Source of the DNA: Streptomyces violaceusniger
Lineage (GTDB): Bacteria; Actinomycetota; Actinomycetes; Streptomycetales; Streptomycetaceae
Direction: 5' to 3'
DNA length: 64,000 bases
Assembly: GCA_005405945.1 (NCBI GenBank)
Contig: BJHW01000001.1
Coordinates: 1,488,001 to 1,552,000 of the forward strand
Under the pieces are notes generated by a model. The model saw only the letters and a program-made list of their open reading frames with translations, made no database searches and was not told the DNA's origin. Position numbers and translations under genes: made by a program. Position 1 is the stretch's first letter, and every line of letters starts with the position of its first letter. Shown here piece after piece: positions 1 through 14,946 of the stretch.

Positions 1-3000
1 CCGGGGCCATGCCGGTACGGACCGGCTCCAGCCAGAAGCGCTCCCGCTGGAACGCATACGTCGGCAACTCCACGCGGCGGGGGCGGGCCGGCGCCAACAG
101 GGCTGACCAGTCGACCTGCCGCCCTCGTACACAGATCTCGGCGAGCGCCTCCTGCAGCGAAGGGACTTCGTCCCGGCCATCGCGCAGCACCGACGCGAAG
201 ACCACGTCGGACACGCACTCCTGCCCCATCCCGGAGAGCACCCCGTCCGGGCCCAGCTCCAGGTAGGTGGTGACTCCCGCGTCCGCCAGACTCCGCACAC
301 CGTCCGCGAACCGCACCGTCTCGCGGACGTGCCGCACCCAGTACTCGGCGGAGCACAGCGCCTCGGCATCCGCGACCAGGCCCGTCACATTCGACACGAC
401 GGGAATACGCGGAGGCGCGTACGACAGCCCCTCGGCCACCTGCCGGAACTCCGCCAGCATCGGCTCCATCAACGGCGAATGGAACGCATGCGAGACACGC
501 AACCGCTTGGTCTTGACGCCCTCGGCCTCCAGCAGCCCAACAACCTCCACCACCGCCTCTTCCGCACCGGAAATCACGGTCGAACGCGGCCCATTGACCG
601 CCGCAACACTCACCTCAGCCTCACGACCGGCCAGCAACCGAAGCACAACCGCCTCAGCCGCCCGCACCGACACCATCACCCCACCCGACGGCAACCCCTG
701 CATCAACCGCCCACGAGCCGCCACCAACACACACGCATCCGCAAGCGACAACACCCCCGCCACACACGCCGCCACCAACTCACCAATCGAATGCCCCGCC
801 ACAAAATCCGGCCGCACACCCCACGACTCCACCAACCGGAACAGCCCCACCTCCACCGCGAACAACCCACACTGCGTAAACCCGGTCTCATCCAGCCCCA
901 CCGCATCCCCGAACACCACATCCCGCAGCGGACGCTCCAACACCCCATCGAACAGCGCACACACCTCATCGAACGCGTCCGCGAACACCGGGAACGCCTC
1001 ATACAGCTCCCGGCCCATCCCAACCCGCTGACTACCCTGCCCCGAGAACAACACCGCCAGCTTCCCCGGCACCACCGAACCCCGCACCACACCCGCCGCC
1101 GGTACACCATCCACCAGCGCCCGCAGCCCGGCCACGAAGCCCTGACGGTCACCGGCCAGCACCACCGCACGGTGCTCGAACACCGACCGCGTGGTCACCA
1201 GGGACGAAGCCACATCCACGACCGATGCCTCAGCGTCCATGTCGCCACGCACCGCCGACAGCAACCGCTCGGCCTGCGCCCGCAGCGCGCCCTCGGACTT
1301 CGCCGACACCACCCACGGCACCGACGCCGGAGCCTCCCGCCCCTCGGCCACCGGCTCGGCAACGCCCACCTCCGCGGGAGCCTGCTCCACGATGACGTGG
1401 GCGTTCGTCCCACTGATGCCGAACGACGACACGCCCGCGCGCCACGACCGGCCCGTCTCCGGCCACACCACCGCATCCGTCAGCAGTTCCACCGCACCCG
1501 CCGACCAATCCACATGCCGCGACGGCTCGTCGACGTGCAGCGACTTCGGCAACACACCGTGCCGCATCGCGAGCACCATCTTCATCACGCCCGCGACACC
1601 CGCCGCCGCCTGCGTATGACCGATGTTGGACTTCACCGACCCCAGCCACAGCGGCCGGTCCTCGGCGCTCCGCTCCCGCCCATAGGTCGCGAGCAGCGCC
1701 TCGGCCTCGATCGGGTCGCCCAGGGCCGTGCCCGTGCCGTGTGCTTCGACCGCGTCCACGTCGGCGGGCGACAGCCCGGCGTTCGCCAACGCCGCTCGGA
1801 TCACGCGCTGTTGGGAGGGCCCGTTCGGCGCGGTCAGTCCGTTTGACGCACCGTCCTGGTTGACCGCGCTGCCCCGCACCACCGCGAGCACCTGGTGCCC
1901 GTTCCGCCGCGCGTCCGACAGCCGCTCCAGCAGGAGCATCCCGGCGCCCTCGGCCCAGCCCGTGCCGTCCGCCGCCGACGCGAACGGCTTGCACCGGCCG
2001 TCCGGGGCCAGCCCCTGCTGCCTGCTGAACTCCACGAACAGCCCGGGCGTCGGCATCACCGTCACACCACCGGCGAGCGCAAGCGCGCACTCGCCCTGGC
2101 GCAGCGACTGGACCGCCAGATGCAGGGCCACCAAGGAGGACGAGCAGGCGGTGTCCACCGTCATCGCCGGGCCCTCGAAGCCCATGGTGTAGGAGATACG
2201 GCCGGAAGCGGCGCTGACGGTGTTGCCGGTCAGCAGATATCCCTGGAGCTCCTCCGAGGCGTCGTGCATCCGCGGGCCGTAATCCTGGGACATCGCGCCC
2301 ACGAAGACACCGGTCCGGCTCTTCTCCCGCCCGGCCGGGTCGATGCCCGCGCGTTCGAAGACCTCCCAGGAGGTCTCCAGCAAGAGCCGCTGCTGCGGGT
2401 CCATCGCCAGCGCCTCGCGCGGCGAGATCCCGAAGAAGGCGGCATCGAAGTCCCCGGCGTCGTAGAGGAATCCGCCTTCGCGGGCGTACGTCGTCCCGGC
2501 TCGTCCGGGGTCGGCGTCATACAGCCCGGACAGATCCCAGCCCCGGTCCGCCGGGAACGCCCCGATGGCGTCACCACCGGAGGCGATCAGCTGCCACAGT
2601 TCCTCGGGCGACCGCACACCACCGGGGTAGCGGCAGCTCATGCCCACGATCGCGATCGGCTCGTCCGGGGCCACGCCGACCGGTGCCGACGCCATCTCCT
2701 CGCACCCGTCCTCACCCAGGAGCCTGTCCCGCAGATGGCGTACGAGGGCCCGGGGCGTGGGGTGGTCGAACAGCAGCGTGGTCGACAGTCGCAGTCCGGT
2801 AGTGGTGTTCAGGCGGTTGCGGAAATCGACGGCGCCGAGCGAATCGAAGCCCAGCTCCTTGAAGGTCCGACCCAGATCGACGGCTTCCGGCCCTTCGTAC
2901 CCCAACGCGGTGGCGACCTGGTCACGCACCAGGTCCGCCAGCATCTCCCCTCGCCGGGCGTCGTTCAGCGGGGCGAGACGTGCCCGTAGGAGCGATGCCG

Positions 3001-5745
3001 CGTCGGTCGCCGATGTGTGGTCCGCGCTGCCCTCGGGATCGGTCGCATCGGCTTGGGTGAGCGAGTTCGGCTCCGGCAGGGCTTGGACGTCCAGCCAGTA
3101 CCGCTTGCGCTGGAAGGCGTACGTGGGCAGCTCGACCCGGCGCGCGGACGTCCCGGCGAACATCCCCGTCCAGTCGACAGAGGCCCGCCCGCATACGCCT
3201 CGGCCACCGAAGTCAGGAAGCGATCCAAGCCGCCCTCGTCACGGCGCAGCGACCCGACGGCCGTCACCTCAGAGCCATGCTGCTCGGCGGTCTGCTCCAC
3301 CCCCACCGTGAGTACGGGATGGGCGCTGGCCTCGATGAACACCTGGAAGCCATCCGCCAGCAGGGCGCGTACAGTCTCCTCGAAGCGCACGGTCTGACGC
3401 AGATTCCGGTACCAGTACCCGGCATCCAGACCGGCCGTGTCCAGCACCACACCGGTCACCGTCGAATAGAACGGCACCGACGACGACCGAGGATCGATCC
3501 CCGCCAGCTCCCGCAGCAACTCGCCCTCGATGGCCTCCACATGAGCGCAGTGCGAGGCGTAATCCACCGGCACACGCCGTGCCCGGACCTCCTCCGCCTC
3601 ACACACGGCCAGCAGCTCGTCCAACGCGTCCACGTCACCAGAGACCACGACCGCCGAGGGGCCGTTCACCGCCGCCACCGACAGCCGCTCGCCCCACGCC
3701 GCGAGCCGCGCCCGTACGCGCTCCACGGGCAGCGACACCGACACCATGCCACCGCGCCCGGACAGCGCCCGCAGGGCCCGGCTGCGCAGGGCTACGACGC
3801 GCGCGGCGTCCTCCAGCGACAACGCACCCGCCACACACGCCGCCGCGATCTCCCCCTGCGAGTGGCCGATGACGGCCGATGGCTCCACGCCGTACGAGCG
3901 CCACAGCTCCGCCAGCGACACCATCACCGCGAACAGGACGGGCTGCACGACATCCACCCGCTCCAGCGCCGCGGGGTCACTGAGGACTTCCACCAGCGAC
4001 CAGTCCACATGCGGCGCCAGGGCCGCCGCACACTCGTCGATCCGCCGGGCGAACACCGGCGAGGAATCCAGCAGCCCGGCCGCCATGCCCACCCACTGCG
4101 ACCCCTGCCCCGGAAACACCAACACCGCACGACCATCACCACCCGCAACCACACCCCGCACCACACCCGCCACATCCCGGCCCTCAGCCACCGCACCCAA
4201 GCCCTCAACCAAAGCCGCACGGCCGGACCCCCACACCACCGCACGATACTCGAAGGCACTACGCGTCGTCGCCAGAGAGAACCCGACATCCCCGGCCGAC
4301 AGCTCCGCCCGCTCCCCCACGTACGACGCCAACCCACCCGCCTGCGCCCGCAACGCCGCCTCGGAGCGCCCCGACACCACCCACGGGATCCGGCCCGGAG
4401 CACCCTTCCCTCGGCTCCCGCCGCGTCCCGAGCCACCACCGGCTCGGGTGCCCCGGAGAGCACCACATGGCAGTTCGTCCCGCCCACGCCGAACGAGCTG
4501 ACACCGGCGGTCAGCGCCTCCCGCGTATCCCCTCCGCGATCCACGGTTCGGATGCCGTCTGCACCCGCAGCTTCAGCCGGTCCAGTGGAATATCCGGGTT
4601 GGGCGTCCGGAAGTTGAGGCTGGGGAAGAGCTCGCCGTGCTTGAGTCCCAGGGCCGTCTTGATGAAGCCGACGACACCGGCCGCGCCCTCCAGATGGCCC
4701 ACGTTGGTCTTGGCCGACCCGACCCGCAGCGGTGCGTCGGTGGGCCGTCGCGCCGCGCCCAGGACCGCGCCCAGCGCCGCGGCCTCGATCGGGTCGCCGA
4801 CCCTCGTACCGGTGCCGTGCAGCTCCACGTACTGCACCCGGGCCGGGTCGACCCCGGCCTGCCGGTAGGCGCGGCGCAGGAGCTCCTCCTGGGCCGCCTG
4901 GTGGGGGCGGTGAGGTGGTCCCCGCCACCGTCGTTGTTGAGTGCGCTGCCGCGGATGACGCAGTACACGGGGTCCCCGTCGGCGAGGGCGTCCGCGAGCG
5001 GCTTGAGGACGACCGCGCCGCCGCCCTCGCCGCGTACGAAACCGTTGGCGCGGGCGTCGAAGGTGTAGGTGACGCCGTCCGCTGACAGCCCCCGAACCGG
5101 GCAGCGCTGACGCCGCTCTCGGGGCGAGGTTGAGGTGGACGCCGCCGGCGATGGCGATGGATGACTCGCCGCGGCGGATGCTTTCGCAGGCCAGGTGGAT
5201 GGCCGCCAGCGAGGACGCCTGTCCGGCGTCGAGGGTGAGGCTGGGTCCGCGCAGGCCGAGGTGGTAGGAGACGCGGTTGGCGATGATGCCGCGGTGGAGT
5301 CCGGTGAAGCTGTGCCGGTCGATGGCGTCCGGGCCGCCCCGCCGGGTCAGCGTGGCGTAGTCGTCCGCGATCACACCGATGTACACGCCGGTGCGGCTGT
5401 CGCGGAGCCGGTCCGGAACGATTCCGGCGTCTTCGAGGGCCTCCCAGGTCAGTTCCAGGGTCAGTCGCTGCTGGGGGTCCATGGCCGCGGCCTCGCGTGG
5501 CGAGATGCCGAAGAAGGCGGCGTCGAAATGGTCGATCCGGTCCCGGTCCAGGAATCCGCCCCGGCGTGGGGCACCAGTGTCCCCGCCCCACCGTCCCTCG
5601 GGGCCTCCGTGATGGCGTCGGCGCCGTCGCGGAGCAGGTGCCGGAAGGTGGCGGGGTCGGGTGCTCCGGGGAGGCGGCAGGACAGTCCGACGACCGCGAT
5701 CGGTGCGTCCGTCGTGTTCGGCGAGGTGCCGTCGGAACCCTTCAT
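1..5745 (-). CDS. Modular type I PKS: KSQ-AT-ACP loading module, then KS-AT of module 1 (runs off left edge; loading module frame-broken)
   Basis: This is the start of a polyketide synthase. The ATG at 5745 follows a GGGAG ribosome site. The loading KS (about 5720-4450) has Gln in place of the active Cys (LDAGQASSL, Gln codon at 5219-5221), so it is a decarboxylating KSQ. AT0 (about 4130-3240) has GHSQG and YASH, the methylmalonyl pattern, which predicts a propionyl starter. The ACP (about 2960-2740) carries [12 protein letters not shown]1 (about 2665-1385) has [10 protein letters not shown]1 (about 1070-130) has GHSIG and HAFH, the malonyl pattern. The post-AT linker [12 protein letters not shown] is cut by the edge. 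The loading module needs about six one-base corrections between 5590 and 3190, whereas 3100-1 reads open. The breaks look like sequence errors. Domain identity is secure; AT specificity is inferred from motifs. Confidence 0.93.
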
Positions 5746-6013
5746 GAGCGTGACTCCCTGGATCCAGGAACGTAGGACGCCGGGCGCACACCAGCGCAAC
5801 GCGAAGGTCTGCGCCGCGTCCGGGCAGGACAGCGGGACAGGAGAACGAGATGGCGAAGCGGGCGGGGAACGCACGGGACAGGGTCGGGCGGGACCCTCCC
5901 GCGTGGCGGATGCCACGCGGGGCGCTCATGTCCTGTTGACCGGTGGCCCGTAGTCCGTGGTTCGCGGGCCGTGTTCCCCGGGCTTCGTGGATGTCTTGTG
6001 GGTCTGGCGGGGC
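5746..6013. other. Gap between the PaaK-like gene and the PKS
   Basis: This 268-base stretch lies upstream of the PKS start. It could hold a PKS promoter or simply be a leader within one transcript. I see no clear -35/-10 pair, strong stem-loop or small gene in it. Confidence 0.35.
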
Positions 6014-7081
6014 CTAGTAGATGCCTTCCGGCGCCGATCGCACGACCTGAAGTGGCTTGACGTTGGCGACGCCGTCACACGGCCACTCCGGGCCCGTGTC
6101 GTACCGCACCGCGAGGTCGCGCTCCAGCACATTGGGCAGGAAGAGGTCGTCGTGCAGGACGGTGAGCCGGACCTGGCCCTGTTCGCCGTATCCGACCACC
6201 TCGGACCAGTCGTCCTTGTCGACGACCGCCATGGTCACCTGCGGATAGTTCGGCAGGTACGGCATGAGGACGCCGTCGTCCTCCACGGGCAGGCCCACGG
6301 TGTTGCCGAAGGTGTTGGCGTAGGTGACGACGACCAGTCCGCCGCCCAGGGCCTTGTGGAAGGACCTGCGCATGGCGGGGGTGGCGTGTGTCCCGCTGAG
6401 CCGTACGCCCAACAGCTGCGCCACCAGCTCGGGCCTCGCCTTGATCAGGGCCTGCAGCAGGGCCGGGGTGGTGACGAGGTAGTCGACCGGCTGGTGCTCC
6501 AGGACCGCGGCGATCTGCTCGGTGATGTGGGCCGTGTACTCCTGCGCGTCCTTCAGCCTGCCGTCGCGCAGCAGCCGCTTGACCCAGCGGGGGTCGAAGT
6601 CGATGCCGTACACCCGGCCGTCGTACAGGTCGGCCAGATCCACGGCGCCGTGTCCGATGAGGTGCGGGCCGGTGGGAGTGGCCTGGAGCCAGGTGCGGCC
6701 GGGCTCGAATCCCTCGCGCTCGATCACCCAGCGCCGCCAGGCGGCGCGGTGCTCGAGCATCGGCGCGGTGTAGAACACCCGGCAGGGGTTGCCGGTGGTG
6801 CCTCCGGAGTCCCAGATCCGGCCGGTCAGGGGCCGGGGCACGGCCTGGGGCACCAGTTCGGCGGGGTCCAGGGTGCGCAGGTCGCCCAGCGGCATCGGGC
6901 CGAAGGCGGTCAGCTCGTCGTAACGGGTGATGTCGCGTGGGTCGATGGCGAGTTCGGCGGCGCGCTTGAGCCAGTACGGGGTGCCGGTGTCCGGGTCGAA
7001 GTGGCGGCGGACGACCCGGCGGGTCCAGGCGTCGATGTCCTGCGAGAGCCACTGGTCGATCTGCTCGGTCACATCCTTCAC
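6014..7081 (-). CDS. Short PaaK/LuxE-like adenylate-forming enzyme
   Basis: This 355-aa protein resembles the phenylacetate-CoA ligase/LuxE group. The adenylate-binding loop reads DSGGTTGNP (about residue 80), followed by a VFYT segment. The family activates carboxylates as acyl-AMP. It ends near YDTGPEW, about where PaaK enzymes begin their C-terminal lid domain with the catalytic lysine, so it is some 70-80 residues shorter than a normal PaaK. The length is nearer to LuxE acyl-protein synthetases. The GTG start at 7081 overlaps the TGA of the upstream acyltransferase by three bases, so the two are probably translationally coupled. Its place between the acyltransferase and the PKS suggests a role in loading or transferring an acyl unit. 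The substrate cannot be read from the sequence. Confidence 0.72.
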   Translation of the reverse strand: MKDVTEQIDQWLSQDIDAWTRRVVRRHFDPDTGTPYWLKRAAELAIDPRDITRYDELTAFGPMPLGDLRTLDPAELVPQAVPRPLTGRIWDSGGTTGNPCRVFYTAPMLEHRAAWRRWVIEREGFEPGRTWLQATPTGPHLIGHGAVDLADLYDGRVYGIDFDPRWVKRLLRDGRLKDAQEYTAHITEQIAAVLEHQPVDYLVTTPALLQALIKARPELVAQLLGVRLSGTHATPAMRRSFHKALGGGLVVVTYANTFGNTVGLPVEDDGVLMPYLPNYPQVTMAVVDKDDWSEVVGYGEQGQVRLTVLHDDLFLPNVLERDLAVRYDTGPEWPCDGVANVKPLQVVRSAPEGIY

Positions 7082-8115
7082 TGGGTCACCCCGGCTTCCG
7101 TGGAGGGGAGTTCGATGCCGAAGTCGTAGACCGCGGTCATCGCCTCGAAGACATGGTCCGGAGATTCCACGTGGACCACGGGGAACGACGCGTTCTGGAA
7201 GGTGCCGAACGCGGCGGGGCCGAGCACCAGACCCAGTTCGGTGCCGCCGTCCTCCAGCCCGCCGATCATGTGCGGGACGCTCACGGGGGCGGTGGGGTTG
7301 CGGCGGAAGAGATCGCGGATCTCCTCGGCGGTGGTGAGGGCCTTGCGCTCCATGCACGAGTGCACGGGCACCCGTGGGTCATGGAAGGTCATGGCCTCCA
7401 GCGTGGGCTCGAGGAAGTCGCTGATGTGCTGCTGGAGCGGCGAGTGGAAGGCCGCGCCGTGGTCGTCGGACACATGCAGCGCCCCGGCCGGGAACCGCGC
7501 GCCGAACTCCTGGAGCGCGGAGCGGTAGCCGCCCAGCAGCACCATGCGCTCCTGGCCCGTGCCGACCTTCCCGAGGTCGGCGGAGAGATACACATCGGGG
7601 ACGTCGGCGAGCAGGTCGCGGACGGCGGTGTCGTAGGGGATCCGCAGCATGGCGACGGCCTGCGGGCCGTGGTCCGCGGCGGGCGGGGGTACTTCCCGCA
7701 ATCGCATCAGAAGCGTGAAGAGATCCTGACGCTCGACGGCTCCGGCGAGAGTGGCGCCGACCAGTGCGCCGAAACTCAGTCCGCATACGGCGGCCGGTGT
7801 TATGCCGTATTCCTCGGCGAGAACATCCGCAATTCCTAATACGGCCGCGGCCTGACGAATGGCACCGATCCCTTGTCGGTGCTCCTGTCCGGGTTGCCGC
7901 TCTTCTTCGAATATCCGCTGGACGTCTATACCCGTCCACTCGGCGATTCGTTGATAGGTGTGCTGCACACTCGGAAAGAGTTCATACAGCTCTGCGCCGG
8001 CTCCCGGCTGATCGTTCATACCACCGTCGAGGACATACGCAAGCGTCACCCCGAAACCCCCGTTTCCGCCCGTTCGCACCGGGCCAAAGCGTGCCGCATC
8101 GCCGCGGCACCCCAT
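7078..8115 (-). CDS. Discrete FabD-like acyltransferase with divergent active site; carries a TTA codon
   Basis: This 345-aa protein belongs to the malonyl-CoA:ACP transacylase fold. The nucleophile motif reads GLSFG where the family normally has GHSxG, and the second catalytic region is AAFHSPL with its His kept. The N-terminal FxGQG-type motif is replaced by VLDGGMND. The ATG at 8115 follows GGGGGAG; an upstream in-frame start would only add a low-quality leader. Codon 93 (7837-7839) is TTA, the rare leucine codon read by bldA tRNA, and the DNA around 7700-7950 is less GC-rich than its neighbours. It may load or edit acyl groups on the PKS or a carrier protein. It could also be non-catalytic given its altered motifs. 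Confidence 0.7.
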   Translation of the reverse strand: MGCRGDAARFGPVRTGGNGGFGVTLAYVLDGGMNDQPGAGAELYELFPSVQHTYQRIAEWTGIDVQRIFEEERQPGQEHRQGIGAIRQAAAVLGIADVLAEEYGITPAAVCGLSFGALVGATLAGAVERQDLFTLLMRLREVPPPAADHGPQAVAMLRIPYDTAVRDLLADVPDVYLSADLGKVGTGQERMVLLGGYRSALQEFGARFPAGALHVSDDHGAAFHSPLQQHISDFLEPTLEAMTFHDPRVPVHSCMERKALTTAEEIRDLFRRNPTAPVSVPHMIGGLEDGGTELGLVLGPAAFGTFQNASFPVVHVESPDHVFEAMTAVYDFGIELPSTEAGVTQ

Positions 8116-8210
8116 GAAGTGCTCCCCCGAGATCCCCGTTCCGCTAGCGGGTCCCAAGAATCGCCCAGCTGTTCGCGTGGGCTCATCAAACCTCTCGCCG
8201 CCAAGGCGTG

Positions 8211-9496
8211 TCAAGCAAGATCGACATGCCTTGCGCCACCTTTGCCTAACCCGGTCGACCTCATTGCGCGACCGCATTTCGGCGTCCTCGCGGGGCCGCC
8301 GAGCTCCTCCCAGACCTGGTCAAGGGCCTTGACGAACATCTCCACCTCGGAGGTGGAATGCACGGCTCCGGGTGCCACCCGCAGGATCTCCCCACCGGCC
8401 CGTACGCTGGGCGAGTTGATCGCCTGCACATAGATGCCGTGCCGCTCCAGCAGCGCCGTGGACATCCGCTTGCACAGGGCCTCGTTCCGCACCAGCACGG
8501 ACACGATGTGGGTGAGGTCGGAGATGAACGGGATCCGGCGCTCCTTCAGCAGCCGGTGCATCAACTGTGCGTTAGCCCACAACCGTTCCCTTTCGGCCTC
8601 CGAGGAGCGCAGATGGCGGACGGCGGCGAGGGCGGCGGCGGCCACGGCGGGCGGCATCGCGGTGGTGAAGATGAAGGAGCGGGAGAACATCCGCACCGCC
8701 TCGATCACCTCCGCCGGGCCCGCGATGTACCCGCCGTTGGTGCCAAAACCCTTGGCCAGCGTGCCCATGATGACGGTGAACCGGTCGGCCAGCCCCTCGC
8801 GCGCCGCGATGCCGGCGCCCTGCGGACCGTACATGCCCACCGCGTGCACCTCGTCGAGGAAGGTCATGGCACCATGGCGCTTGGCGATGTCGGCGATCTC
8901 CGCGAGTGGCGCGATATCGCCGTTCATCGAGTAGACCGACTCGGCGACGATCAGCTTGGGCGCGTCGGGGTCCGCGGCGGCGAGCAGTTCCTCGAGGTGC
9001 GCGGTGTCGTTGTGCCGGAAGATCCGCTTCTGGGCGCCGCTGTGGCGCAGGCCGTCGATGATGGAGGCGTGGTTGAGCGCGTCGGAGAAGACGACGCACC
9101 CCTCCATGCGGCCCGCGATGACGGACAGCGCGCCGTCGTTGGCGGTGTAGCCGGAGGTGAACAGCAGCGCGTCGTCCTTGCCGTGGAGCGCGCTGAGCTC
9201 CTTCTCCAGAGATACGTGGTAGTGGTTGGTGCCACCGATGTTGCGCGAGCCGCCGGCACCCGCCCCGTACTGGTCGACGGCTTCCTTCATGGCCTCCAGG
9301 ACGGCGGGGTGCTGGCCCATGCCGAGGTAGTCGTTGCTGCACCAGACGCTGATCCGGGGGTGTCCTCGACGCCGCTGACGCTGGCGGCGGGGAACTGACC
9401 GGCGAGCCGTCCGATCTCCAAGAACTCTCGCTTTCCACCGTCAGAACCCTCGGTGAGGCGCGAGAAGAGGTCCAGATATTGGGTCGTCACGTCCAC
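8211..9496 (-). CDS. 5-aminolevulinate synthase-like enzyme of the C5N pathway (frameshift near 9355)
   Basis: After one base is restored in a C run near 9355, this reads as a 428-aa PLP enzyme of the alpha-oxoamine synthase family. It has the [10 protein letters not shown] entry motif, LDEVHAVG with the PLP-ring Asp/His, and [15 protein letters not shown] with the PLP lysine. The family condenses succinyl-CoA with glycine to 5-aminolevulinate. Copies inside polyketide or moenomycin clusters also cyclise the CoA ester to 2-amino-3-hydroxycyclopent-2-enone (C5N). The two adjacent ligases make that role likely, because a housekeeping ALAS is not expected in Streptomyces, which makes heme by the C5 route. 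A TTA codon lies at 8247-8249 near the C-terminus. The start is GTG at 9496. Confidence 0.9.
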
Positions 9497-9750
9497 TCAC
9501 TTCGCTTTTAGGCTACTTGGGGAGCGCGCAGAAAGCGGGATGAGCCGTAACGACCCCCCGCCGGCGCCAATCTACATGTGGTCGGCCGTCAATCGGTATG
9601 CCGAAAGGCAATCTCCGCGCACCCGATCCGGTTTCACGGCAGGAAACTGACGGGTGACTGGAAGAAGGTTGCCATGCCGGGGGCAGGGTGTCATCCTTCA
9701 GCGGGAAACGGCACCTTGAACTCATCGGCACACGGCGAACTGGAGTTTCG
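9497..9750. promoter_or_regulatory. Divergent promoter region of the C5N genes
   Basis: This 254-base gap separates the leftward ALAS gene from the rightward ligase genes, so both transcripts should start here. A GGAG ribosome site at 9742-9745 serves the ligase start at 9751. I see no unambiguous -35/-10 pair or clear operator palindrome, and no small ORF worth calling. Confidence 0.4.
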
Positions 9751-11290
9751 ATGTCTCCGACCGACAATTACGTCCGACGGGTCCTCGAGGCTCTATCGGC
9801 CGATGCGGAGCGGGTTGCCCTGCTCCGCGACGATGAGCGGTTCACCGCCGGTGAGTTCACCCGCACCGTGGTCGCGGCGGCGGAATTGCTGCGCCGCGAG
9901 ATAGCGGAAGAAGAAATTCCGGTCGTGGCCGTACTGACGGTCGCCAACACCCGGCCACCATCATTCTGCGCTATGCGGCGAACCTCATCGGCGCCACGGT
10001 GGTCCATCTGCACTCCACCAACGCGGTGGACCCCACCGATCAGCTGGCCACCCGCGAGCGGCACGAGATCCTGCAGAAGACCGGCGCCACGTTCCTCGCC
10101 GTGGACGAGGAGAACCTGGGCCTGGCCCGGGAGCTGTGCGAGCGTCTGCCGGATCCGCCCCGGCTCGCCGGACTGGGCTCCCTCGGCCCCGATGTGCTGG
10201 ACCTGACCACGGGCGACGCGGACGCCTTCGATCTGACGGTCGTGGAAACCGACCCCGAGCGCCCGGCCGTGGTCCTGTTCACCAGTGGCACCAGCGGCAC
10301 CCCGAAGGGGTGACACTCCCCTTCCGCGTCCGAACTCTCTATCTGCGGGCGGGACTTGAGGCGCCCGGCCCGATCACCTATCTGTCCACACTGCCGGTGA
10401 GCCACTCCAACGGCTCGGGCGCCGACCTCGCCCTCGCCTCCGGTGGCACGGTGGTCCTGCACGAGGGCTTCGACACGAGCGCGGTGCTCGACGCGGTGGA
10501 GCGCCACCGGGTGTCCGCGCTCACCCTCACCCCTCCGCAGCTGTACATGCTGGTGGACCACCCGGCCATCAAGGACACCGATCTGTCCAGCATCCAGATC
10601 ATCTCCTACGGTGGCTGCCCCGCCGCCCCGGCCCGGCTGGCCGAGGCGGTCGAGGTGTTCGGCCCGGTGCTGCTCCAGTTCTACGGCACCACCGAGACCA
10701 GCGGGATCAGCGTGCTCGCCCCGCCGGACCACTTCGACCCCGAACTGCGGCTCACCGCCGGTCGGCTGACCGCCGAGGTGCGCATCCGCGACCTGGAGGA
10801 CCAGCGCGATCTGCCAGTGGGCGAGATCGGCGAGATCTGCGTACGGTCGCCGTTCAACATGCTCGGCTACTGGCGCGAGCCGGAGCTGACCGCCGAGACC
10901 GTACGCGACGGCTGGGTGTACACCGGCGACTTCGGTTCCCTCGACGAGCGCGGCTATGTGCGGCTGCACGGCCGGGTGGGCGAGGTGATGAAGACCAACG
11001 GGATCAAGGTCCATCCCACCGCCGTCGAGAACGCGTTGCTGACCCACCCCGATGTGGCCCAGGCCGCGGTGTACGGAGTGGCAGACGGGGACCGGGTGGA
11101 GCACATCCACGCCGCCGTGGTGCTCCGGCCCGGTGGCGCCGCCGACTTCACCTCGCTGCTCGACCATGTGTCCGGTGAGCTCTCGCCCAAGCACGTACCG
11201 GCCGCCATCACCTTCCATGACGACCTTCCGCTGACCGGTGCGGGCAAGCCGGACAAGCAGCGGCTGGCCGCCCAGCGGGCCGGGGCATGA
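9751..11290 (+). CDS. AMP-dependent acyl-CoA ligase/amide synthetase of the C5N pathway (two frameshifts)
   Basis: The corrected protein is about 513 aa and belongs to the acyl-adenylate-forming (ANL) superfamily. It has the P-loop FTSGTSGTPKG, QFYGTTETSG, the hinge region YTGDFGSLDERGY and the C-terminal catalytic lysine motif GAGKPDK. Frame breaks near 9953 and 10312 are fixed by one base each; the second sits in a G4 run that should be G5. Known C5N clusters carry one acyl-CoA ligase that activates 5-aminolevulinate and one amide synthetase that joins C5N to the polyketide acid. This gene and the next probably provide those two activities, but which does which needs phylogeny. Its stop overlaps the next start by four bases (ATGA). 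Confidence 0.88.
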
Positions 11291-12827
11291 CGCTCACCGC
11301 GGCGGCGGTGCTCGCCGAGTCCGCACTGCGGCGCCCGGACCACCCCGCGCTCGTCTTCGGCTCGCGGCGCATCACCTACCGCGAGCTGTGGGACGCCACG
11401 CGGCGGTACGCCGCCGTACTGCGCGACCAGGGCATCGGCCCCGGCGACCGGGTGGCGCTGCTGCTGCCGAACTCCCCGCACTTCCCGATGGTGTACTACG
11501 GGGTGCTGGCGCTCGGCGCGGTGGCCGTCCCGGTGCACGGTCTGCTGCGCGCCGACGAGATCGTCCATGTGCTCCGCGACTCGGAGTCGAAGGTGCTGGT
11601 GTGCGGGGCGCCGATGCTCACCGAGGGCGCCAAGGGAGCGGAGGTGGCCGGGGTACCGGTGGTCACCGTGCTGGAGGAGCACGACGGCGGCCGTCCGCGC
11701 CTGGACGCCCTCGCCGAAGGCGCCGAGCCCATCGAGCGGTGTGTTCCGCGCGAGCCCGGCGACCTCGCCGTGGTCCTGTACACCTCGGGCACCACCGGCC
11801 GTCCCAAGGGTGCGATGATCACCCACTTCAACCTGGTGATGAACGTGAGCACCACCATGCGCTCGCCGTTCGACCTCGGTCCCGACGATGTGCTGCTCGG
11901 CTGTCTGCCCCTGTTCCACACCTTCGGGCAGACCTGCGGGATGAGCACCACCTTCCTGGCGGGCGGCACGATGGTGCTGATGAGCCGGTTCGACGGCCCC
12001 CAGGCGCTGGATCTGATGGTCACCGAGGGGTGCACCGTCTTCATGGGCGTGCCCACCATGTATCTGGCCCTGCTCGACGCCGCCGCCGAGGACCCCCGCC
12101 GCCCCGCCCTCGACCGCGCCTTCTCCGGGGGCTCGGCGCTTCCGGTGAAGGTGCTCGAGGACTTCCAGGAGGTCTTCGACTGCCCGATCTACGAGGGGTA
12201 CGGGCTGACCGAGGCATCACCGGTGGTCGCCTACAACCAGAAGGCGTGGCCGTGCAGACCGGGGACGGTGGGGCGCCCGATCTGGGGCGTCGAGGCGGAG
12301 ATCGCCGCGGCCGATGTGGAGGACCGCGTCGAGCTGCTGCCGACGGGCACGGTCGGTGAGATCGTCATCCGCGGCCACAATGTGATGGCCGGGTACCTCA
12401 ACCGCCCGGAGGCCACCGCCGAGGTGCTGGTCGACGGGTGGTTCCGCTCGGGCGACCTCGGCACCAAGGACGCGGAGGGCTATCTCACCCTCGTGGACCG
12501 CAAGAAGGACCTGGTGGTGCGCGGCGGCTACAACGTCTACCCGCGCGAGGTGGAGGACGTGCTGATGCGCCACCCGGCCATCGCCCAGGTGGCCGTCATC
12601 GGACTGCCCGACGAGGTGTACGGCGAGGAGGTGTGCGCCGTGGTGCGGCCACGCCCCGGGGAGGTTCCGGACGCGGCGCTCGGCTCCGCGATCGTGGCGT
12701 GGGCCAGGGAGCGGCTCGCCGGGCACAAGTACCCCCGCCGAGTGGAGTTCATCGACGCCTTCCCCTGGGCCCCAGCGGCAAGGTGCTCAAACGCGAACTC
12801 GTCGGCCGCTTCACCACCGGCCGGTAG
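11287..12827 (+). CDS. AMP-dependent acyl-CoA ligase of the C5N pathway (frameshift near 12768)
   Basis: The corrected protein is about 513 aa and resembles long-chain fatty acid-CoA ligases. It shows the P-loop YTSGTTGRPKG, EGYGLTEASP, the hinge SGDLGTKDAEGYLTLVDRKKD and the C-terminal GPSGKVLKREL with the catalytic lysine. A C4 run near 12768 should be C5; without that base the last residues are lost. Translation is coupled to the upstream ligase through an ATGA overlap. In known C5N pathways one such enzyme makes 5-aminolevulinyl-CoA for cyclisation by the ALAS-like enzyme. A strong hairpin at 12981-12997 lies downstream, so this is probably the last gene of the rightward unit. Confidence 0.88.
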
Positions 12828-12921
12828 CCAAGCGACCGCCAGCCGAGCGACCGCTAGGCGCTCCGCGGGAAGTGGCGCCAGGCGTCGTCGGCCGACTGCG
12901 GCGCGGTCGTGGCTGGTCCCA

Positions 12922-12978
12922 CGCGGCGGAGCCGCATATCGACACAGCCGCGCGGCGGAGCCGCACATCGACACAGCC
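12922..12978. repeat. Two 28-bp direct repeats
   Basis: Two copies of a 28-base unit (12922-12949 and 12951-12978) differ at one position. Each contains GGCGGAGCCGCA followed by TATCGACACAGCC or CATCGACACAGCC. They lie in the 344-base gap 12828-13171, just before the terminator hairpin. The rest of that gap holds no gene I can support. Confidence 0.75.
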
Positions 12979-12980
12979 CC

Positions 12981-12997
12981 GCGCCCCTTCGGGGCGC
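12981..12997 (+). terminator. Hairpin terminator after the ligase pair
   Basis: A perfect 7-base stem GCGCCCC/GGGGCGC closes over a TTC loop. It lies 150 bases after the ligase stop and before the next gene, so it plausibly ends the C5N ligase transcript. No T-run follows, as is usual in Streptomyces. Confidence 0.55.
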
Positions 12998-13171
12998 CGC
13001 CCGAACCGTAGCGGACTTCCTCCGACCTGCTGAGCCAACCGGCTGGTAGCCAATCGGGCGGTAAAGAATTGTCGCCTCAGGGGAGTTCCTGGCGGATACC
13101 TTTACCCGCACCCGCGCCCTCCACCACTATGGGCACTCGTCTCACTGTCGGTGACACGAGGAGTGGTGAGG

Positions 13172-14946
13172 GTGACCGACCCGCACGGAACCGAACCCGA
13201 TGCCACCACCGGGCAGCGGCCCTACCCCCAACTGTCCGACACGGAGCTCACCGAGCGGATCCGCTCCGGGGCGCCCACCGCCCTCCCCGCCACCCAGGAG
13301 CTGAGGGAGCGCCACCTTTCGGCGGTGCTGTCCTACGCCCGGCTCTGCGGCAGGACCCGGGCCGACGCCGACCAGCTCACCGACCTGTCCTTCGGCCTCG
13401 CCGCGCAGGAGACCTGTCGCGGTATCGACCCCTGGGGGCCGTGGCGCCACCATCTGCTGCTGCTCGTCCAGCGGGTGGCCGCCACCTGGGCGGAGGGCGG
13501 CCGGGGGAGCGGCTGGATCCCGCGTTCGCCGAGTGGCTCGGCCACTGTGGCATCGCCGCGGGCGGTGAGGCCGGACTCCCGAGGCCGAGGGAGCGTTCGG
13601 CCATGCTCGGCGGCTTCCTCACCCTCTCGGCGCGCACCCGCGACGTCCTGTGGTACAGCGTAGTGGAGGAGGAACCCGACACGGTGGTGGCCACCTTCGC
13701 GGGAGTGGCGCCGCACACCGTCCCCACGCTCCGGGAAACGGCTCGGAGCGCGCTGCGCGAGGCGTGGCTGCGGACCCATCTGGAGCATGGCTGCGAGCAG
13801 ACGTGCCAGGGGTTCCGGGCACTCATCGAGGCGGCCGTACGCCCGGAGAACCCCCGGCGCTGCGACGACCTGGACCGCCATCTGTCCGGCTGCCTTTCGT
13901 GTGCCGGGGTGTACGGCGACCTGATACGGATGGACGAGGATCCCCGGCCCGTGATCGCCGATGGGCTCCTGGGGTGGGGCGGAACGTCCTATGTCACGGC
14001 GGACTCGGTCGGCGGTGTGCCGTCCGTGGGTTCGGCGGCGCCGTCGCCCGCGGAGCCGCCGCGGCCGGAGCCTCCCTCGGTCCCCGCTCCCCCGCCGTCG
14101 TATTCCCCGGTGGGGCCCACCGGTGTCGCGGGAGTCGCGGCGAATGCGCCGATGGACGGTGGGTCCGTGGGACGTTGGCGCCCACGGGCCTGGACGGGCT
14201 CCCGGCCGCGCACGACGGCCGCGCTGGTCGCGGTGGCGGCCGTGGCGGCGGTGGCCCTCACCATAGTCCTCCTGGTGTCCGACGGGGACGACATGGCCCC
14301 GGCCGGTCGCGCGAACACCCCTGCGCCCACGGCCACCCCGGCGGCTCCTTCGTCGGAGCCGACGACGAATCCACCGGCTCCGACGAAGAGGCCACAGCGC
14401 CCGCCGAACCCCGGTGGCATGACCGAACCGTCCACGACCGCTCCCGCCTCCCCTCCCCCGAGCACCGCCCCGGCGCCCGTCACCCCGATTCCGGACGACA
14501 GCTACACGGCGGTGATCAATGCCGCCTCCGGGCTCTGCCTGGACATCCGCGATCAGCAGTTGGAGAAGCGCACGGACGCGATCCTGGCCCGGTGCAGCGG
14601 GAGCGACACCCAACGGTGGCGGCTGGACTCGGAGGGGCTGCTGCACACCGAGGCCGACCCCGACTTCTGTCTGGACTCGCGCGGGGACACCGACCGGGGT
14701 GTCGGCATCTGGCCGTGCTCCTCCGCCGACGGCGACAACGGCGAGAACCTGCGGTTCGCGATCGACCGCCACGGAGTGATCCGCCCTCATATCGCACCCG
14801 ACTTCGCGGTCACCCCGGACGGCGACGACCCCGACAGCGAGGTCGAGCTGCGCTCGGCCGAGGACCGCGACGACCAGCGATGGAACGCCGGCCTCGGGGA
14901 TGCCTCGGCCGATGTGTCGGTGTCGGACGCCACCCCGGCACGGTGA
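13172..14946 (+). CDS. Membrane protein with sigma-like N-terminus, zinc-finger motif and ricin-type lectin domain (frameshift near 13500)
   Basis: A GAGGAG ribosome site at 13158-13163 supports a GTG start at 13172. With one base restored in a G5 run near 13500 the product is about 591 aa. Residues about 1-220 resemble sigma-factor region 2/4 proteins. Next comes DRHLSGCLSC, an HxxxCxxC anti-sigma-type zinc motif. A Pro-rich stretch leads to one membrane helix (TTAALVAVAAVAAVALTIVL), then a Pro/Thr/Ser linker. The C-terminus is a ricin B-type trefoil domain (SGLCLDIRD, CSGSDTQRWRL, DFCLDSRG). This suggests a cytoplasmic signalling head and an outside carbohydrate-binding tail. A link to the polyketide cluster is not evident. 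Confidence 0.75.

Follow-up and report, generated by a model that had tools for sequence, protein, structure and literature searches.

What kind of product does a locus of Streptomyces violaceusniger make in which genes for a C5N unit (2-amino-3-hydroxycyclopent-2-enone) lie beside a type I polyketide synthase (PKS)? We addressed this question for positions 6014 to 12,827 of a 64,000-nucleotide stretch of contig BJHW01000001.1 (the window, G000:C1:1488001-1552000), which belongs to a three-contig genome of 11.7 Mb. The minus strand, read from right to left, carries a 5-aminolevulinate synthase (ALAS) gene, an acyltransferase-like gene, an EhpF-like gene and the start of the modular PKS (from about 5745), and two adenylate-forming ligase genes follow each other on the plus strand, divergent from the ALAS gene. 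A first-pass annotation had taken the C5N unit to cap the polyketide directly as an amide, and this reading of the gene set changes because the interval also holds two intact genes, at 6014-7081 and 7078-8049, whose products are relatives of Orf3 and Orf2 of bafilomycin biosynthesis. Each of the five bafilomycin B1 capping enzymes has a relative encoded in the locus, which, judged from this homology, quite probably directs the synthesis of a macrolide with a fumaryl-C5N (flavensomycinyl) ester. We prefer an ester on a macrolide hydroxyl to an amide since relatives of Orf2 and Orf3 are present and the PKS ends in a thioesterase (TE).

The ALAS and the two ligases form a C5N triad

The ALAS, read on the minus strand from 8211 to about 9490, has the pyridoxal phosphate (PLP) motif [11 protein letters not shown] already noticed in the first-pass annotation, and scored 484.7 bits against TIGR01821, the 5-aminolevulinate synthase model (cut-off 338.55). 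Enzymes of the cyclising type (cALAS) are described as carrying the markers T83S, I149L/V, D231T and T365S (PMC4525017). When aligned to 2BWN, the window ALAS has S83, L149 and S365, and S, L and S also occupy these positions in all 45 cALAS rows, whereas the classical enzymes 7x98 and 2bwn have T, I and T. A relative at 46%, of unknown kind (L092), has S83, I149 and S365. The numbering of the D231T marker could not be matched, as 2BWN has E231 and D240, where the window enzyme has A and T, and the classical 7x98 has T240 as well.

Among the best 120 of 8000 database matches to the ALAS, 33 proteins were 83-100% identical, followed by a break to 78% and below. A tree of 48 rows, built by a quick method with 34 of the other 119 proteins listed, chosen by name, and with two classical enzymes, placed the window ALAS with those of S. 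rugosispiralis, S. samsunensis, S. viridosporus and others, and separated it from both classical enzymes. S. viridosporus is a named carrier of the moenomycin (moe) genes (PMC4525017). A housekeeping heme ALAS was rejected on the basis of this separation from the two classical enzymes in the tree.

Both coupled ligases that had been picked out by their endings were read on the plus strand, ligase 1 at 9751-11290, spread over three frames and ending in GKPDK, and ligase 2 at 11287-12827, which reaches SGKVLK in another frame after a frame change near its end. In a tree of 38 rows, ligase 1 fell into an 11-row clade with genes adjoining cALAS genes (support 100/99) and ligase 2 into a separate 11-row clade of cALAS-neighbour genes (support 100/100). 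The acyl-CoA ligase paralogues tested lay outside both clades, and fatty-acid type ligases were rejected by this tree. By position and clade, ligase 1 is BafY-like, of the amide synthetase type, and ligase 2 is BafX-like, of the 5-aminolevulinate CoA ligase type. In summary, the marker residues and the clades support the proposal that the three genes are a C5N triad, predicted from their sequences to make 2-amino-3-hydroxycyclopent-2-enone, and the two trees gave the separation that the first-pass annotation had named as a check.

The gene order is also informative. A head-to-head triad, with ALAS divergent from the ligases, is reported for the moenomycin/bafilomycin group, and a head-to-tail ams-hemA-all order for the linear direct-amide group of manumycin, ECO-02301 and annimycin (PMC4525017). 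In the window, the ALAS gene runs opposite to both ligase genes, so the head-to-tail order of the direct-amide group is absent, and the family, which had been thought impossible to name from the right edge alone, can be narrowed to the bafilomycin/moenomycin group. The triad of Kitasatospora cheerisanensis was likewise read as head-to-head. This genome has a second C5N triad (C1:4655001-4672000), in which ligases and ALAS are on the same strand.

An acyltransferase/EhpF-like pair related to the bafilomycin enzymes

The EhpF-like gene (6014-7081, minus strand, intact frame) encodes an adenylating enzyme of 355 amino acids that matches EhpF (PDB 3hgu) over residues 14-355 (E 7.7e-45); an AMP-binding_C domain was not detected in this protein. 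It is 65% identical to the K. cheerisanensis enzyme, and a tree of 36 rows placed the window and bafilomycin enzymes within one 28-row clade (support 100/100). The adjoining gene (7078-8049, minus strand, intact frame) encodes a stand-alone acyltransferase of about 323 amino acids, counted from a presumed GTG start. Its Pfam acyltransferase match is barely above the cut-off (E 5.6e-8). Its predicted model (pLDDT 89) has malonyl transacylases as the best PDB matches (TM 0.80), and the loading acyltransferase VinK is among the fold matches. A Ser-His dyad, Ser92 and His202, is invariant in the 15 rows of an alignment that omitted L009, L010 and L011 (nearly empty rows) as well as L016, L026 and L028.

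In S. lohii, Orf3 is reported to adenylate fumarate and Orf2 to move the fumaryl group to a macrolide hydroxyl, before the C5N unit is joined (PMC7827423), and a malonyl transferase of 321 residues and a CoA ligase of 360 residues are listed for the S. griseus bafilomycin cluster (PMC3679948). By analogy, we propose that the PKS of the window locus would start from propionate and build a 27-carbon chain, which the TE would close into a ring; that the EhpF-like enzyme would adenylate fumarate, and the stand-alone acyltransferase would transfer the fumaryl group to a macrolide hydroxyl; and that cALAS and ligase 2 would convert succinyl-CoA and glycine to 2-amino-3-hydroxycyclopent-2-enone, which ligase 1 would couple to the free fumarate carboxyl. 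We infer the compound, its ring size and the position of the ester from the presence, order and homology of the genes, their clades, the active-site residues and the domain order of the PKS.

The PKS predicts a scaffold other than bafilomycin

The loading module (2732-5745, minus strand) consists of a ketosynthase (KS) with an active-site Gln (KSQ, LDAGQASS), a methylmalonyl acyltransferase (AT) with GHSQG and YASH, and an acyl carrier protein (ACP, 2732-2932), in agreement with the loader assigned earlier; the KSQ assignment is limited to the loader. Module 1 (1-2662, minus strand; KS and malonyl AT) follows, and the PKS continues left of the window to G000:C1:1427681. The leftward extension that had been advised gave 12 modules and a TE. 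Domain models were built from this cluster and run on its own pieces and on those of two intact relatives in the same genus, G102 and G171, where the whole PKS consists of the KSQ loader, 12 modules and the TE in three genes. A methyltransferase gene adjoins the PKS end.

With ketoreductase (KR), dehydratase (DH) and enoylreductase (ER) domains, the modules read M1 malonyl, KR; M2 methylmalonyl, DH without KR; M3 methylmalonyl, DH-ER-KR; M4 methylmalonyl, KR without LDD; M5 malonyl, KR; M6 methylmalonyl, DH-KR; M7 malonyl, KR; M8 methylmalonyl, DH-KR; M9 malonyl, DH-KR (AT motif unread in G102); M10 methylmalonyl, DH-KR; M11 malonyl, DH-KR; and M12 methylmalonyl, DH-KR-ACP-TE. By textbook logic, this assembly line would yield a propionate-started chain of 27 carbons with seven methyls, a 2,4,6,8,10-pentaene, a 14-ene, hydroxyls at C13, C17, C19 and C25, and a ketone at C23. 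Of these features, the 2-ene is predicted with the least certainty since the M12 DH of G171 lacks the motif Gly, with His and Asp kept. If the ring closed at C19, it would be 20-membered, as in the venturicidin family.

Run on K. cheerisanensis as a control, this caller found AT-ACP and 11 modules in five frames, which agrees with the bafilomycin PKS as reported, with a single starter and eleven extenders spread over five genes (PMC3679948). The scaffold of the window locus differs from bafilomycin because loader type, module count and gene count differ (KSQ loader, 12 modules and 3 genes versus AT-ACP, 11 modules and 5 genes), and bafilomycin itself was rejected as the product. Demurilactone was also rejected, with its 14 extension modules, its isobutyl start and a gene list that, as far as given in the excerpted source, lacks C5N genes (PMC9673147). 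A literature search, in which few subscription journals were covered, found no name for the product, and the main text of the S. rugosispiralis paper has no word beginning with bafilomycin, C5N or fumar. The product is likely not bafilomycin, and a known cap is likely placed on an apparently uncharacterised scaffold.

Distribution of the pair and its co-occurrence with cALAS

We then looked at the neighbours of EhpF-like genes in named genomes, keeping the best 80 of 566 relatives as loci. An acyltransferase lies directly upstream in 20 of the 22 loci whose EhpF-like protein is at least 51% identical, the exceptions being L023 and L024, and in L028 the acyltransferase is in pieces. The more distant loci (at most 41% identity) have an upstream acyltransferase in 0 of 58 cases, with several of the contigs short. 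A cALAS gene lies within 10 kb in 5 of the 20 pair loci (L007-L010 and L025). The other 15 include K. griseola and K. cheerisanensis, whose genomes do carry cALAS and which are reported bafilomycin makers (PMC4064034; PMC4384148, the latter for another strain). Since 15 of the 20 pair loci have no cALAS within 10 kb, the acyl substrate of the pair need not be fumarate in every locus, and other acyl half-esters may await discovery. The pair without cALAS within 10 kb is also seen in Frankia, Kibdelosporangium, Amycolatopsis and Nocardia (L014, L015, L016, L017, L021, L022 and L026). In Streptomyces sp. NRRL WC-3742 (L025), the five cap genes are rearranged and no KS match was found in the 21 kb fetched; a different class of capped product may be made there.

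A survey of 392 genomes of the genus (E cut-offs 1e-80 for the EhpF-like protein and 1e-130 for ALAS) found the EhpF-like gene in 15 and an ALAS match in 32, three of which are only 53-55% identical. cALAS was present in 8 of the 15 EhpF-like genomes versus 24 of the 377 others (Fisher p 3.5e-6); these p values are guides only, as the genomes are related and the source genome is among the eight. The tandem pair was found in 10 of the 15, an acyltransferase on the opposite strand in 1 and none in 4. With the three weak matches dropped, cALAS was present in 8 of the 10 tandem-pair genomes versus 21 of the 382 others (p 1.4e-8). Where one contig carries both, in 7 genomes, the EhpF-like gene and cALAS are 1.2-87 kb apart; G281 has them on separate contigs.

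Weighing the alternatives

Several observations weigh against a fumaryl-C5N ester. In the 48-row tree, the window ALAS lies in the S. viridosporus clade, separate from the clade of bafilomycin cALAS. The missing cALAS near 15 of the 20 pair loci counts here too, as does its absence from 2 of the 10 tandem-pair genomes (G246 and G357). The window and bafilomycin EhpF-like enzymes belong to different sub-clades of the 28-row clade, and the acyltransferase shares only 38% identity with its K. cheerisanensis counterpart. The latter has no Pfam match, and the S. samsunensis copy falls under the Pfam cut-off. Because of the 65% and 38% identities and the different sub-clades, the pair is, by sequence comparison, made up of relatives rather than close orthologues of the bafilomycin enzymes. 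This distance and the differing sub-clades would suit a pair that moves another dicarboxylic acid, such as succinate or malonate, with C5N joined to that half-ester. However, EhpF-like proteins are 65% identical between the groups and the same C5N triad accompanies both, and we consider this substitution decidedly unlikely.

In manumycin-type and ECO-02301-type compounds, the C5N amide sits directly on the carboxyl of the polyketide. A triad adjoining a type I PKS would suit this arrangement, and type I linear polyketides with C5N are known (PMC4525017). The TE at the end of the PKS, the acyltransferase/EhpF-like pair in the interval and the head-to-head order, where the direct-amide group is head-to-tail (PMC4525017), argue against it and leave it unlikely. 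That the pair would instead activate an unusual starter unit and load it onto the PKS is suggested by its place directly upstream of the loading module and by VinK among the fold matches, but a KSQ-AT-ACP loader is already part of the PKS, the K. cheerisanensis pair lies at the opposite cluster end from the loader, and a tailoring role is reported in S. lohii (PMC7827423), so that such a function seems highly improbable.

The frames in the window raise another doubt. Several frames are needed to read the ALAS, the two ligases and the PKS, and only the acyltransferase and EhpF-like genes are unbroken; the ALAS is broken near both ends, with its body at 8211-9320 and the upstream part to about 9490 in a different frame. 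If these breaks were real, the cluster would be dead. However, G102 and G171 hold intact copies of the broken genes, with the PKS in three open frames, and a near-identical intact ALAS (P0004) is present in the database. Compared with G102, the DNA is about 93% identical, with about 175 gap openings over the 71.8 kb aligned, which suggest read errors. Hence, the frameshifts look like assembly errors, and a dead cluster is very unlikely. The assembly is rich in small insertions and deletions throughout G000:C1:1427600-1501000, which includes window positions 1-13000.

With the fumaryl-C5N ester as the favoured reading, we lean, with less assurance, towards an uncharacterised macrolide family in large-genome Streptomyces near S. 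rugosispiralis and S. samsunensis, with a propionate-started, 27-carbon, heptamethyl ring, a conjugated pentaene, a retained ketone and the bafilomycin B1 cap, and towards a cap that moves between scaffolds in two steps, the pair with the PKS core and the triad on top. If true, the fumaryl-C5N cap is not bound to the bafilomycin skeleton, and the acyltransferase/EhpF-like pair near a C5N triad would be a small gene set for finding capped macrolides. Calling such clusters bafilomycin B1 on cap genes alone could then mislead; a region of S. rapamycinicus is labelled bafilomycin B1 by antiSMASH (PMC9206652).

Neighbouring genes

Beside ligase 2 and outside the proposed cluster, positions 13603-14946 of the window encode a protein with a ricin-type beta-trefoil lectin domain. 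Left of the window, G000:C1:1405-1421 kb (L001 and L002) holds a second, iterative-looking PKS with KS, AT, KR, PS-DH and ACP, whose PS-DH has a weak phosphopantetheinyl transferase match and which is accompanied by hydrolase, glycosyltransferase and methyltransferase genes. Synteny with G102 and G171 covers the KS/AT part of this second PKS, which was not seen in the S. olivoreticuli region fetched.

Comparison with known systems

The EhpF structure (PDB 3hgu) is that of a homologue of the window protein, and the distant EhpF-like loci (at most 41% identity) have no acyltransferase. EhpF belongs to a different pathway, that of the phenazines. The irumamycin PKS of the venturicidin/irumamycin macrolides has a KSQ loader and 12 modules, as in the window locus (PMC11672594). 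The side chains may be alike as well. This family was compared by its published description, and cap genes are unmentioned in the excerpted irumamycin source (PMC11672594).

The bafilomycin B1 (baf) cluster of S. lohii, S. griseus DSM 2608 and K. cheerisanensis has relatives of all five of its cap genes in the window locus, with identities to K. cheerisanensis of 77% for cALAS, 61% for ligase 1, 74% for ligase 2, 65% for the EhpF-like protein and 38% for the acyltransferase. Both loci have a head-to-head triad. They differ in the position of the pair, which stands beside ALAS and the loader in the window locus but in K. cheerisanensis occupies the cluster end remote from the loader; there, the bafilomycin PKS lies between the pair (367-369 kb) and the triad (435-439 kb). 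A further difference is that in the window locus no methoxymalonate-type gene was found among the ten left-flank pieces scanned.

The complete genome of S. olivoreticuli ATCC 31159 has a locus that resembles the window locus in its acyltransferase (74% identical), EhpF-like protein (79%) and methyltransferase (72%), the last again beside the PKS end, and in a KSQ loader, 12 modules, a TE and a related domain order. Its PKS differs in a fully reducing M2 (DH-ER-KR) and in swapped AT types of M11 and M12. No C5N triad gene was found in this locus, and the best ALAS-like protein genome-wide is 47% identical. A half-ester lacking C5N would be the expected product of this strain. With a related PKS, the pair and the methyltransferase present but no cyclising ALAS, S. 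olivoreticuli makes the triad look like an add-on: the fumarate pair seems to accompany the PKS core, on top of which the C5N triad would have been gained or lost.

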